64,000 bases of DNA from Gemmatimonadota bacterium (GTDB lineage Bacteria; Gemmatimonadota; Gemmatimonadetes; Gemmatimonadales; GWC2-71-9). Position 1 is the first letter of the stretch; every line of letters starts with the position of its first letter. The notes under the pieces are model-generated. The model ran no database searches, was not told where the DNA came from, and was given only the letters and a program-made list of their open reading frames with translations. The DNA lies in contig QHUU01000065.1 in assembly GCA_003222155.1 (NCBI GenBank), forward strand, positions 1 to 64,000, in the 5' to 3' direction. The translations under genes and the position numbers were made by a program. Positions 39,389 through 44,128 of the stretch are shown piece after piece.

Positions 39389-39470
39389 GGCCACTGTGGT
39401 TTTGGGGCGACACGGTTTGCCCCAGCGCCATGACTGTAGCGACCGCGACACACGGTCGTTGACATCGACA

Positions 39471-39561
39471 TCGCTGCTCAGAGCAAACCCGTCGAAAGAC
39501 GGTGACGCAGAGTCACGGGACTACGGCGACGACGTCGCTAGGTCCGCCGGGCCGCCAGCGA
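39471..39561 (+). ncRNA. GEMM-I class cyclic dinucleotide riboswitch aptamer; A at the Vc2 G20 position suggests GEMM-Ib (3',3'-cGAMP) type
   Basis: TCGCTGCTCAGAGCAAACCCGTCGAAAGACGGTGACGCAGAGTCACGGGACTACGGCGACGACGTCGCTAGGTCCGCCGGGCCGCCAGCGA. Matches the Vc2 layout AGGGCAAACC-hairpin(GAAA)-GGGACGCAAAGCC..GGCCUA..GCGGGGUUACC. P1 TCGCTG/CAGCGA. A18=39480, A20=39482, G21-C46, C92=39555. Confidence 0.9.
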
Positions 39562-39599
39562 AACGACCCCAGGGTCCTCGCTGGCGGCCTCTTCGTTTT
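39550..39599 (+). terminator. Rho-independent terminator acting as riboswitch expression platform
   Basis: Perfect 11 bp stem GGCCGCCAGCG (39550-39560) / CGCTGGCGGCC (39579-39589) followed by TCTTCGTTTT; the 5' arm lies inside the aptamer including P1 3' strand. Confidence 0.85.
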
Positions 39600-39647
39600 G
39601 GTGCCCGCCCCGAGCCCCCGACGTGATGTGAAAGGACGCCATAGTCG

Positions 39648-39779
39648 ATGCCGTTCGGGTTCAAGCTGTCGCATCGTCTTTCGCTGACCAAAGCGGCGGT
39701 CGGTACCGCCGCCGTGCGCGTTCGCCGCACGGCGGATTGTCCGTTCCGCCGCGCAATCCATACCCCCCAAGAACCATGA
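39648..39779 (+). CDS. Short leader ORF (43 aa) overlapping the next start codon by ATGA
   Basis: AAAGGA 5' of ATG; MPFGFKLSHRLSLTKAAVGTAAVRVRRTADCPFRRAIHTPQEP*; N-terminus resembles MPFLFKLSHRVARMR at 41885. Confidence 0.5.
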   Translation: MPFGFKLSHRLSLTKAAVGTAAVRVRRTADCPFRRAIHTPQEP

Positions 39780-41800
39780 CCTTCATGCACAAGCTATCGT
39801 GCCGACTGGCACGTCTAAAAGACCGTGTCGCGTGCGTGCCCGCCGCGGCGCTCGCCGCCGTGGCGGTGCTCGGCTGCGAGCGCCCCGTGGCGATCACGGA
39901 CACCGGCTCGCAACTCGCCCAGTTCCTCATCGCACCTCAAGTCGTCACGCTGCAGCAAAACCAGACGCAGGACTTCACGACCGTCGGTCTCACGGCCACG
40001 GGCGATACGGCGCTGATCGCCGTCTCGTGGAGCGTGACCGGCGGCGCCATCGACACGAGCAGCAGTGGCGGGAAGCACTACGGCCATTACCGGGCGACGC
40101 AATGCGGGGACTATACGGTGTCCGCGACGAGCACCCCCGGGGCGATGCAGGCCACGGCGAGCGTCAGCGTGCTGTGTCCGGGCGCGGTTCCGGTCGACAC
40201 GGTCGTCGTGAGCCCTGCGACGGCGCGCGTGTTCGTGGGGGGGACGGCGCAGCTCGGCGCGACGGCCCAGGATTCGGCGGGCAATCCGCTCAGCGGCCGA
40301 ACCGTCACGTGGACGAGCAGCGACGGCGGTGTGGCGCGCGTGAACGGCAGCGGCCTCGTCACGGGCGTGGCCGCCGGCACGGCGACGATCACCGCGACGA
40401 GCGGCGGAAAGAGCGGCAGCGCGGCGGTGACGGTCGTAGCCGTTCCAGTGGCGACGGTGAGCGTGAGCCCCGCCACGGCGAGCGTGGCGGCGGGTAATTC
40501 GGTGCCGCTCAGCGCGACGCCGAAGGACTCGGCGGGTCACCCGCTGAGCGGGCGGGTGGTGAGCTGGGCGACCAGCGACGCTGGCGTGGCCACGGTGAGC
40601 ACGAGTGGCGTGGTGACCGGGGTCGCTCCGGGCTCGGCGACGATCACCGCGACGAGCGAAGGGAAGAGCGGCACGGCCGCCGTGACGGTGACGGCGGCGC
40701 CCCCGCCGGGCACCTGCGTCGGCGCGTGCCACTACGTCGACGCCGCGACGGGCAACGACGGCAATGCGGGGACCAGCACCGCTCCCTGGCGCACGATCCA
40801 GCACGCCGCCGACGTGACAAACCCGGGGGACACCGTGCTCGTGAACGACGGGGTGTATACCGGGGGCGGGAACGTCGTGACGATCAGCCGCAGCGGCACG
40901 GCCACGGCCTGGCTCGTGTTCCGCGCGGTGCACCTGTGGGGCGCCGTGATCGACGGTCAGAACAACAGCTCCACGGTCGGGATCGAGATCAACGGGAACT
41001 ACGTCCGCGTCGAAGGCTTCGAGGTCCGCAACACCAGCCGCTACGGCATCGACGCCTACGGGGGCTCGGAAAGCTCCGCCGGGAACCACGATGTCGACGT
41101 GGTGCAGAACCACATCCACGACATCGGCCACATCTGCACCGGAGACGTGGGGGGCATCGTGGGCGTCGACGCCTACGCCGACAACCTCGTCATCGAGCGG
41201 AACGTCATTCATGACGTGGGACGGCTCGGCCCGGGCGAGCAGGGCTGCGTGGAGCCGAACGGCAACTGGCAGAACCACGATCACGGGGTCTATCACGGCA
41301 TCGGCAACAACGTCGTGATCCGCAACAACGTGTTCTACAACTTCATCCGCGGCTGGGCGATCCAGCGCTACAACGGCAACGGCGCGGTGACGACCGGGCT
41401 CACGATCGTGAACAACACGTTCGCGTTCCCGAATCCGTGGCGCGATGGTCACATCATCATCGCGACGGGCGTGAACGACCTGCTGATCGCGAACAACGTC
41501 TTCTACCAGCCGACGACGGCCGGAGTCTGGCTCGACACCGGGGGTCTGGGCAACGCGACGGTGTCCAACAACATCACCTTCGGCGCGGTGGCGAGTGTGG
41601 GCTCGGGCGCGACCGGCGCCGGCAACCTCGACAATACGGATCCGAAGTTCGTGAACGTCGCCGGGCTCGATTTCCGCGTGCAGGCGGGGAGCCCCGCGAT
41701 CGGGGCGGGCCTGCCGCTGACGATGGTGACCAACGACATCAGCGGCGCGGCGCGTCCGGCGACCGGCGGTTATACGATCGGAGCATACGAGTTCAAGTGA
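39776..41800 (+). CDS. Secreted surface protein: BIG2/Ig-like repeats plus right-handed beta-helix domain
   Basis: Lipobox-like AVAVLGCERP; two VSPATA..AGNSVPLSATPKDSAGHPLSGR..VATVSTSGVVTGVAPGSATITATSEGKSGTAAVTV units; parallel beta-helix C-terminal domain. Confidence 0.82.
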   Translation: MTFMHKLSCRLARLKDRVACVPAAALAAVAVLGCERPVAITDTGSQLAQFLIAPQVVTLQQNQTQDFTTVGLTATGDTALIAVSWSVTGGAIDTSSSGGKHYGHYRATQCGDYTVSATSTPGAMQATASVSVLCPGAVPVDTVVVSPATARVFVGGTAQLGATAQDSAGNPLSGRTVTWTSSDGGVARVNGSGLVTGVAAGTATITATSGGKSGSAAVTVVAVPVATVSVSPATASVAAGNSVPLSATPKDSAGHPLSGRVVSWATSDAGVATVSTSGVVTGVAPGSATITATSEGKSGTAAVTVTAAPPPGTCVGACHYVDAATGNDGNAGTSTAPWRTIQHAADVTNPGDTVLVNDGVYTGGGNVVTISRSGTATAWLVFRAVHLWGAVIDGQNNSSTVGIEINGNYVRVEGFEVRNTSRYGIDAYGGSESSAGNHDVDVVQNHIHDIGHICTGDVGGIVGVDAYADNLVIERNVIHDVGRLGPGEQGCVEPNGNWQNHDHGVYHGIGNNVVIRNNVFYNFIRGWAIQRYNGNGAVTTGLTIVNNTFAFPNPWRDGHIIIATGVNDLLIANNVFYQPTTAGVWLDTGGLGNATVSNNITFGAVASVGSGATGAGNLDNTDPKFVNVAGLDFRVQAGSPAIGAGLPLTMVTNDISGAARPATGGYTIGAYEFK

Positions 41801-41810
41801 TGTGAATGCG

Positions 41811-41847
41811 GGGCCGCCCGTCCTCGCTCGGACCGGCGGCCCTTTTT
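41811..41847 (+). terminator. Rho-independent terminator between the two beta-helix genes
   Basis: GGGCCGCCCGTCC / GGACCGGCGGCCC stem (one mismatch) followed by TTTTT. Confidence 0.85.
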
Positions 41848-41884
41848 GTTGCCTGTAAACAACCTGTATCAGGAGTGCAACACT

Positions 41885-44128
41885 ATGCCCTTTCTCTTCA
41901 AGCTGTCCCATCGCGTGGCGCGCATGCGAACCCGCGCCCTCCTCCTCGCCGCGGCGGCCACGCTGGGCGCCTGCGAGGCCAGCGATCCTTCCGTCAGTGC
42001 CCCTACCCACCCGAGCTTTTTGACCACTACAGGCGCCCCCGCCGGGGTCACGGACCTCGCCGCGGCCGCCATGACCGACAGCTCCGCCACCCTGACCTTC
42101 ACGGAGGTGGACGATGGCACGGGCGCGCCGGCGAGTTACGACGTACGCGGCGTCCCCGGCGCGTCGATCACGTGGGGCGCATCGGCGCCGAGCGTCACCC
42201 GAGGGACCTGCGCGACGCCGGTGGCGGGTACGACAATCGGCGCGAAGCGCACCTGCACGGTGCTGGGGCTCGCGCCGAGCGCGACCTATAGCTTCGAGCT
42301 GGTGGCGTACCGCGGGACGCTGCGCGTGAATGCCGTATTTGGGCCGCTTTCGAGCATTGCGAGCGGCAAGACCGCGCCGAGGGGGAGCGTTCCCGCACCT
42401 GTGGCCTCGGTGGTCCTGAGCCCGGCGACGGTGAGCATGGTGGCGGGGAGCACCGCGCAGCTGACCGCGACGCCGAAGGACTCGGCCGGCACCGCGCTCA
42501 GCGGCCGGCCCGTGAGCTGGGCGTCGGGCAACGGGGGCGTCGCCACAGTGAGCGGGGCGGGGGTGGTGACGGGCGTCGCGGCGGGCGCGGCGACGATCAC
42601 GGCGACGAGTGAAGGCAAGAGCGGGACGGCGACGGTGACCGTCACGGCCTCGCCTACGACGGTGACGAATCCCGGCACGGTGACCGATTTGCGCGTGGCG
42701 GGCGTGTCGGATACGGGTGTGACGCTGGCGTTCACGGAAGTAACGAACGGCAGCGGCGGCGCGGCCAGCTACGATGTCCGAAGCGTCCCGGGGAATACGT
42801 TGACCTGGGGCACGGGGGCGCCGAGCGTCAGCCGGGGGACGTGCGCCACGCCGGTGGCGGCGACCACCATCGGCGCGAAGCGGACCTGCACGGTGCTGGG
42901 CCTGGCGCCGAGTACCGCGTACGGTTTCCAGCTCGTGGCCTATCGAGGGACGCTGAAAGTGAACGCCGTGTTCGGCGGGCTCTCGAACGTTGCCACCGGC
43001 ACGACCGCCGGCCGCGCCGGGCCGCCGCCTCCTCCGCCATCGGGGAGCTGCAGTAGCGCCTGCCGCTACGTCGACGGGGTCGCCGGCAACGATGCGAACC
43101 CGGGGACCAGCTCGGCTCCCTGGCGCACGATCCAGCATGCGGCCGACGTGGCCAACTCCGGGGACACCGTGATCGTGAACGACGGCGTCTATACGGGGGG
43201 CACCAACGTCGTGACGATCGGCGGCAGCGGCACGGCGAGTGCGTGGCTGGTGTTCCGGGCCGCGCACCGCTGGCAGGCGATCATCGACGGACGGAGCAGC
43301 AGCTCGGCCGTCGGTATCGAGATCAACGGCAGCTACGTGCGCGTCGAGGGTTTCGAGGTGCGTAACACCAGCCGGTACGGCATCGACGCCTACAACGGGC
43401 ACGACGTGGATGTCGTGGCGAATCACGTCCACGACGTGGGGCACGTCTGCACCGATGACGTGGGGGGGCGGGTCGGCATCGACGCCTACGCCAGGAACGT
43501 CACCATCGAGCGGAACGTCGTGCACGACGTCGGCCGGTTCGGCCCGGGTGAGCAGGGGTGCTCCCCGAGCACGGGCAACTGGCAAAACCACGACCACGGC
43601 ATCTATGAGGGCAGCGAGCACGCCGGGCAGAGCGACAACCTCGTGGTCCGCAACAACATCTTTTACCACTTCACGCATGGCTGGGCGATCCAGCGCTACG
43701 ACGGCAGCGGCACCAGCGTGAACGGGCTGACCATCGTGAACAACACGTTCGTCGGCGCCAACCCATGGCGCGACGGCCAGATCATCATCGCGACCGGCGC
43801 GAGCAACGTGGTCATCTCCAACAACATCTTCTACCAGCCGACCACGGCCGGGATCTGGTTCGATACCGGTGGCCTGACCAACGTCACCGTGTCCAACAAC
43901 CTGTCGTTCGGCGCGGCGGTCTCCACGGGTCTTTCCGGTGTCGCCTCGGCGAGCAACCTCGTGAACGTCGACCCCCGGTTCGTGAGCGCGTCCGGGCTCG
44001 ATTTCCACGTGCAATCCGCCAGCCCGGCGATCGGGGCCGGGATGACGCTGTCGAGCGTGCCGAACGACTTCGACGGCTACTCGCGCTCGGGCGGGGCCTA
44101 TACGATCGGAGCCTACCAGTTCCACTGA
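41885..44128 (+). CDS. Secreted surface protein: FN3-like / BIG2 / FN3-like modules plus right-handed beta-helix domain
   Basis: MPFLFKLSHRVARMRTRALLLAAAATLGAC lipobox; two near-identical modules ..GTCATPVAGTTIGAKRTCTVLGLAPSATYSFELVAYRGTLRVNAVFG..; C-terminal region closely matches 39776-41800. Confidence 0.82.
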   Translation: MPFLFKLSHRVARMRTRALLLAAAATLGACEASDPSVSAPTHPSFLTTTGAPAGVTDLAAAAMTDSSATLTFTEVDDGTGAPASYDVRGVPGASITWGASAPSVTRGTCATPVAGTTIGAKRTCTVLGLAPSATYSFELVAYRGTLRVNAVFGPLSSIASGKTAPRGSVPAPVASVVLSPATVSMVAGSTAQLTATPKDSAGTALSGRPVSWASGNGGVATVSGAGVVTGVAAGAATITATSEGKSGTATVTVTASPTTVTNPGTVTDLRVAGVSDTGVTLAFTEVTNGSGGAASYDVRSVPGNTLTWGTGAPSVSRGTCATPVAATTIGAKRTCTVLGLAPSTAYGFQLVAYRGTLKVNAVFGGLSNVATGTTAGRAGPPPPPPSGSCSSACRYVDGVAGNDANPGTSSAPWRTIQHAADVANSGDTVIVNDGVYTGGTNVVTIGGSGTASAWLVFRAAHRWQAIIDGRSSSSAVGIEINGSYVRVEGFEVRNTSRYGIDAYNGHDVDVVANHVHDVGHVCTDDVGGRVGIDAYARNVTIERNVVHDVGRFGPGEQGCSPSTGNWQNHDHGIYEGSEHAGQSDNLVVRNNIFYHFTHGWAIQRYDGSGTSVNGLTIVNNTFVGANPWRDGQIIIATGASNVVISNNIFYQPTTAGIWFDTGGLTNVTVSNNLSFGAAVSTGLSGVASASNLVNVDPRFVSASGLDFHVQSASPAIGAGMTLSSVPNDFDGYSRSGGAYTIGAYQFH

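Follow-up and report, generated by a model that had tools for sequence, protein, structure and literature searches.

Which second messenger is read by the leader RNA at positions 39472–39590 of the 64,000-nucleotide stretch of DNA analysed here (the window)? An earlier note had recognized a GEMM-I riboswitch in this leader and, from an A in place of G at position 20, had predicted control of a surface protein by 3′,3′-cGAMP rather than c-di-GMP, with a mixed specificity as the alternative. The host, as had been supposed, is not a Geobacter relative but a soil Gemmatimonadota (genome of 3.45 Mb in 130 contigs, 95% complete). Computational analysis of the window and of this genome demonstrated the aptamer, its A20, its overlap with a terminator and a co-resident Hypr-type enzyme. 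The evidence for each is given below, followed by an assessment of the ligands that this RNA may bind.

Results

A GEMM-I aptamer with A20 and G48

The full window was used as the query in a cmscan search against Rfam 15. The family RF01051 (c-di-GMP-I/GEMM-I) matched at 39472–39559 on the forward strand with 57.4 bits (E = 1.4e-8), compared with a gathering score of 35 bits, and was the sole Rfam family to exceed its cut-off within the window. This search and the look-up of position 20, both proposed in the earlier note, returned a GEMM-I match with an A at 39482, the base expected of GEMM-Ib. The elements of the aptamer are as follows.

39472–39560, + strand: GEMM-I (c-di-GMP-I) aptamer of the A20/G48 subclass (RF01051 match; pairing and covariation over 44 relatives)
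39472–39476, + strand: P1 5′ strand, CGCUG (partner CAGCG, 39556–39560; compensatory changes at 3/5 P1 pairs in relatives)
39482, + strand: A20, a pocket base that is G in Vc2 and G20-type aptamers (cmscan alignment, model position 11)
39510, + strand: G48, A in Vc2, pocket-adjacent (found together with A20 in 61/64 family A20 matches, overlapping loci being counted repeatedly)
39555, + strand: C92, expected to form a Watson–Crick pair with the guanine that c-di-GMP and cGAMP share (cmscan alignment)

The aptamer positions were numbered after the Vc2 nucleotides of the 3IRW sequence. In the resulting alignment A18 corresponds to 39480, A47 to 39509, C93 to 39556 and the G14–C93 pair to 39476/39556, and the hand placements of A18, A47, C92 and G14–C93 made previously agree with it. 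In the established structures of Vc2, C92 pairs with the ligand. The aptamer has the secondary structure, A18, A47, C92, G14–C93 and GAAA tetraloop in common with Vc2 (Vibrio cholerae; GEMM-Ia, RF01051), but differs from it in having A20 for G20, G48 for A48, C90 for U90, and CUC preceding A18. The change at position 48 had been overlooked in the earlier note. We conclude that the aptamer at 39472–39559 is a real riboswitch.

The downstream genes encode predicted lipoproteins

Two related genes lie downstream of the aptamer.

39776–41800, + strand: regulated gene, encoding a predicted lipoprotein (Cys34) with BIG2 and a DUF1565/beta-helix-like C-terminal part (Pfam; alignment)
41885–44128, + strand: paralogous lipoprotein gene (fn3, BIG2, beta-helix), without its own aptamer here (Pfam; cmscan)

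The target is predicted to be a lipoprotein that carries BIG2 repeats and ends in a beta-helix-like part (the DUF1565/beta-helix match being weak in Pfam), in line with the surface protein that had been proposed. The two proteins of the window were aligned with the family proteins whose genes stand behind A20 or tandem leaders, 26 proteins in all. The lipobox-compatible Cys34 was invariant (26/26) and BIG2 was present in 25/26, so that the regulon looks like a set of surface lipoproteins. A similar leader is found in genome G027 (L203), ahead of a gene for a protein with 70% identity.

Some further features of these genes were recorded. A 43-codon open reading frame at 39648–39779 (MPFGFKLSHRLSLTK...) shares the N-terminal motif of the lipoproteins and overlaps the main gene at its end through an ATGA; it may be a remnant or a coupling ORF. 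A terminator-like stem without an aptamer (41800–41885) stands ahead of the second lipoprotein gene, whereas a gene similar to this second one has its own A20/G48 aptamer in G027 and G021. The aligned downstream proteins have a common N-terminal motif, M-x-F-x-H-K-L-x-x-R-L-A-x-L-K, preceding the lipobox, which makes for an atypical-looking lipoprotein signal.

The aptamer overlaps an intrinsic terminator

A strong stem-loop follows, and partly includes, the aptamer.

39549–39590, + strand: intrinsic terminator stem-loop with arms at 39549–39561 (GGGCCGCCAGCGA) and 39578–39590 (UCGCUGGCGGCCU), then a U-rich tail

Its 5′ arm contains C92 (39555) and the P1 3′ strand (39556–39560). The fold energy of 39545–39604 is −37.4 kcal/mol, and for the leader as a whole (39462–39605) the minimum free energy structure, which has the terminator, is at −70.7 kcal/mol, as compared with −48.7 kcal/mol when the aptamer pairs are enforced. 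Because the terminator arm takes in both C92 and the 3′ strand of P1, ligand should turn the gene ON; we infer the direction of control from this overlap, and 39472–39590 should act as a transcriptional ON riboswitch. In the ligand-free state, the 3′ portion of the aptamer, comprising C92, C93 and the 3′ strand of P1, would go into the strong terminator. A cyclic dinucleotide bound at A20 and C92 would keep these bases in P1 and the aptamer, allowing polymerase to enter the lipoprotein gene. Such a terminator-competing ON arrangement has been reported for the cGAMP-activated pgcA leader of Geobacter (PMC6456294). Complements of at least 8 bases were found downstream of the aptamer in 21/38 distinct family leaders, 19 of these 21 having a T-rich tail, in a search that scored mismatched stems and leaders clipped by search or contig ends as negative. 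A sigma-70 promoter scan found none.

A20/G48 aptamers recur as a subclass

Covariation was counted at 27 pairs over 44 related A20/G48 aptamers, with 500 shuffles and slid registers as controls. Standard pairs made up 95.7% of the total, and both-sided changes were seen at 18 pairs as compared with 10.2 in the shuffles. No shuffle (0/500) approached the observed pairing, and the slid registers fell to 29–48%. The 44 aptamers thus show the compensatory changes by which their membership of GEMM-I was tested.

The host genome has five GEMM-I aptamers, three of them A20/G48 and two G20/A48. Among 91 matches read at loci of the family, in which overlapping loci are counted repeatedly, 61 were A20/G48, 27 were G20/A48 and 3 were A20/A48; there was no G20/G48, every G20 aptamer carrying A48. 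Records of Nitrospirota, Deltaproteobacteria, Acidobacteria and Eisenbacteria also contain similarly flanked A20/G48 aptamers. Judged by these alignments, A20/G48 is a recurrent subclass, separate from the G20/A48 type.

We considered G48 as the base that sets specificity, but did not adopt this view. C90 accompanies G48 in 44/44 aligned A20/G48 aptamers, and G48 may therefore be only a change in an adjacent base pair that does not itself determine the ligand. A pocket difference between the aptamers of the family and those outside it was likewise rejected on comparison, the two sets being alike.

Two loci of genome G009 carry A20/G48 aptamers in series: three consecutively, with 157 nt spacing, in L184 (G009:C36), and two by pattern in L183 (G009:C3), where the Rfam search gives a third. 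Leaders of the Gemmatimonadota type were also seen in metagenome-assembled genomes labelled Chloroflexi and Armatimonadetes (L032 and L091), perhaps on misbinned contigs.

Leaders with both aptamer types

Nine leaders, from seven genomes and three genera, have an A20/G48 aptamer and then a G20/A48 aptamer 158–185 nt further on, and this order is the same in all nine. One of them (L026) is in the host genome.

C121:1952–2224: tandem A20/G48 and G20/A48 aptamers, ahead of a BIG2 lipoprotein gene

In the tandem leaders that were read, a terminator-like stem lies behind the first aptamer. The start codon is 91–107 nt past A18 of the second aptamer, which suggests that the G20/A48 aptamer probably acts on translation. 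Folding of the tandem leaders gave no clear switching fold for this second (G20) aptamer.

Two or three GEMM-I aptamers per leader are likewise found in the Bacillus thuringiensis triplet and in other tandem c-di-GMP-I riboswitches (PMC9481103), but the nine leaders described here differ from the known tandems in mixing A20/G48 with G20/A48. A systematic catalogue of tandem riboswitches contains fifteen kinds of two-ligand gate, in addition to 347 c-di-GMP-I doublets (PMC9481103). A pairing of c-di-GMP-I with c-AMP-GMP is absent from its two-ligand gates, and the doublets might include unlabelled mixed pairs (PMC9481103).

A candidate cGAMP synthase in the same genome

The host genome has 20 GGDEF matches, in 12 of which the motif was legible by pattern. 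One of these 12, L015 on contig C81, has Ser replacing the canonical Asp (GHLVGS). All three Hypr marks that were examined are present in this protein, namely Ser348, GGDEF rather than GGEEF, and Tyr304 at the cross-dimer position. Natural Ser/Thr enzymes retain GGDEF, and diguanylate cyclases have Arg at the cross-dimer position (PMC6456294). The GHLVGS of L015 aligns with that of G. metallireducens GacA, the Geobacter Hypr GGDEF (PDB 6D9M), which shares Ser348, GGDEF and Tyr304 with it. Comparison of L015 with GacA gave E = 1.5e-25, two ordinary diguanylate cyclases scoring slightly higher. The L015 gene is truncated by the contig end; its homologue in G027 (L255) is a complete MASE1-GGDEF and so has a MASE1 input domain, whereas the annotation of 6D9M is that of a response-receiver/GAF-type diguanylate cyclase.

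By its Hypr marks L015 is a candidate cGAMP synthase, and the search for Hypr-type GGDEF proteins that the earlier note had called for was thus positive. SMODS (DncV-type) synthases above the cut-off were found in none of 20 genomes, the host genome included. Another GGDEF protein of the host, L012 (G000:C127:16255–16731), has GHEAGN, with Asn at the selectivity position, and is encoded behind an apparent ferredoxin/hydrogenase-like region.

Co-occurrence of A20/G48 aptamers and Hypr enzymes

In pattern searches over 395 Gemmatimonadota genomes, with reversed patterns as controls, 58 genomes matched the A20/G48 pattern (control 2) and 32 matched the Hypr pattern (control 0). The family to which the host belongs is represented by 81 genomes: 23 had both patterns, 49 had neither, and the 9 discordant genomes had Hypr only (4) or A20/G48 only (5). 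The Fisher p-value for this association was 1.3e-11 by genomes and 0.005 by genera, kinship being ignored in both. The 5 family carriers without Hypr compare with ∼3 expected from genome incompleteness.

Outside the family there were 30 A20/G48 carriers and 5 Hypr genomes, and the overlap was 0, as against ∼28 carriers with Hypr expected under a strict link. In three of these outside carriers, one of which has seven A20/G48 aptamers, every legible GGDEF domain had the canonical Asp. SMODS-type cGAMP synthases were sought in 12 of the 30 and none was found above the cut-off. The expectation that the aptamer be absent where the synthase is not found, which is not part of the published definition of GEMM-Ib, therefore failed, 30/30 outside carriers being without a Hypr match. 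This weighs against a strict link between aptamer and Hypr enzyme, not against A20; such carriers show that the enzyme cannot be predicted from the aptamer alone.

Among Nitrospirota, Hypr was found in 5/8 A20/G48 carriers compared with 65/198 of the phylum sample (p = 0.12). Across phyla, it was found in 11/18 A20/G48 genomes compared with 2/32 mostly A20/A48 genomes (p about 5e-5), a contrast that is confounded by phylum. We dropped it as independent support because the Hypr pattern is present in 65/198 Nitrospirota genomes in any case. This last proportion is itself above expectation, Hypr enzymes having been put at 0.17% of GGDEF domains (PMC9140294).

The ligand of the A20/G48 aptamers

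In Gmet_0970, position 20 alone flips the ligand, A giving cGAMP and G giving c-di-GMP (PMC6456294). More generally it has been described as a selectivity factor, not a hard filter (PMC9262584). The A20 variant of c-di-GMP-I from Desulfobacca acetoxidans, which resembles the present aptamer in its single pocket change and in having G20 aptamers in the same genome, gained cGAMP binding and retained much c-di-GMP binding; it differs further in its tandem arrangement with an AdoCbl riboswitch (PMC9481103). Because the Desulfobacca A20 aptamer is mixed and 30 carriers are without the Hypr pattern, A20 by itself does not fix the ligand. The step from A20 alone to cGAMP is thus the less secure part of the earlier reading, and the mixed specificity offered there as an alternative is still plausible, whereas GEMM-I, A20, the non-Geobacter host, the surface lipoprotein and the Hypr GGDEF are all supported.

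Support for cGAMP comes from A20 and the effect of position 20 in Gmet_0970, from the competing terminator of the pgcA kind, from the Hypr marks of L015, from the co-occurrence within the family, and from the two pocket types, which stay separate within genomes and within leaders. We infer that the ligand is most likely 3′,3′-cGAMP, which L015, the GGDEF protein of contig C81 with Hypr marks, would supply; c-di-GMP may be a second ligand that binds more weakly. That cGAMP, alone or mixed with c-di-GMP, is the physiological ligand appears probable to us, by a modest degree of confidence.

The carriers without the Hypr pattern would be accounted for if the A20/G48 aptamer, identical in type in all 30, were an ordinary c-di-GMP ON switch in which G48 (with C90) or other changes rescue binding, the Hypr enzyme then serving another effector. 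The wholly canonical legible GGDEF domains in three of the 30 and the permissiveness of position 20 (PMC9262584) are consistent with this. However, in the natural A20 aptamers described in two studies, A20 favoured or improved the binding of cGAMP (PMC6456294, PMC9481103), and the strict split into two types, the mixed tandem leaders and the co-occurrence with Hypr within the family also argue against it, so that we regard it as rather unlikely, while giving it appreciable weight. That many carriers are without a recognized cGAMP synthase would also fit an orphan variant class, sensing a different cyclic dinucleotide or a wide range of them. The retention of C92 and A47, by which one guanine or more should be bound, makes this improbable, as does the co-occurrence with Hypr in the family. 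The Rfam alignment contains a small number of non-standard pairs, including a C–U where the GAAA hairpin begins at its base, and these might be taken to mean that the aptamer is decayed or non-functional. Such decay is very improbable in view of a covarying structure conserved across several phyla, the similar leader and closely related product in G027, and the intact terminator.

Discussion

The reading that we prefer, a cGAMP-responsive ON switch, would place this leader beside the cGAMP (GEMM-Ib) riboswitches of Geobacter such as GSU1761 and Gmet_0970, with which it has A20 and terminator-competing ON control in common. Surface-associated targets and a Hypr GGDEF in the genome are also common to both (PMC6456294). 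It differs from them in its Gemmatimonadota host, in belonging to the A20/G48 subclass, in that its ligand is a predicted one, and in its targets, which are BIG2 lipoproteins whereas those of Geobacter are cytochromes. No paper on Gemmatimonadota riboswitches of this type was found in the open-licence literature, which is weak evidence of absence.

Taken further, the data could be read as a Gemmatimonadota cGAMP pathway, in which a Hypr MASE1-GGDEF supplies the A20/G48 riboswitches and some leaders form a two-messenger RNA gate with cGAMP and c-di-GMP in series, the A20/G48 aptamer with its transcription terminator coming first and the G20/A48 aptamer lying close to the start codon. We propose this tentatively, as a plausible scheme that falls somewhat short of being probable.

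Most cGAMP riboswitches for which selectivity has been measured and a pathway is known in vivo come from Geobacter. If another lineage had a matching synthase, it would provide an independent test of the ligand change in the GEMM-I pocket. The A20/G48 subclass sharpens the question of whether A20 is enough, or whether the subclass reads c-di-GMP, as the carriers without Hypr may suggest. The mixed A20–G20 leaders would be a natural test of how two second messengers are compared on one mRNA.
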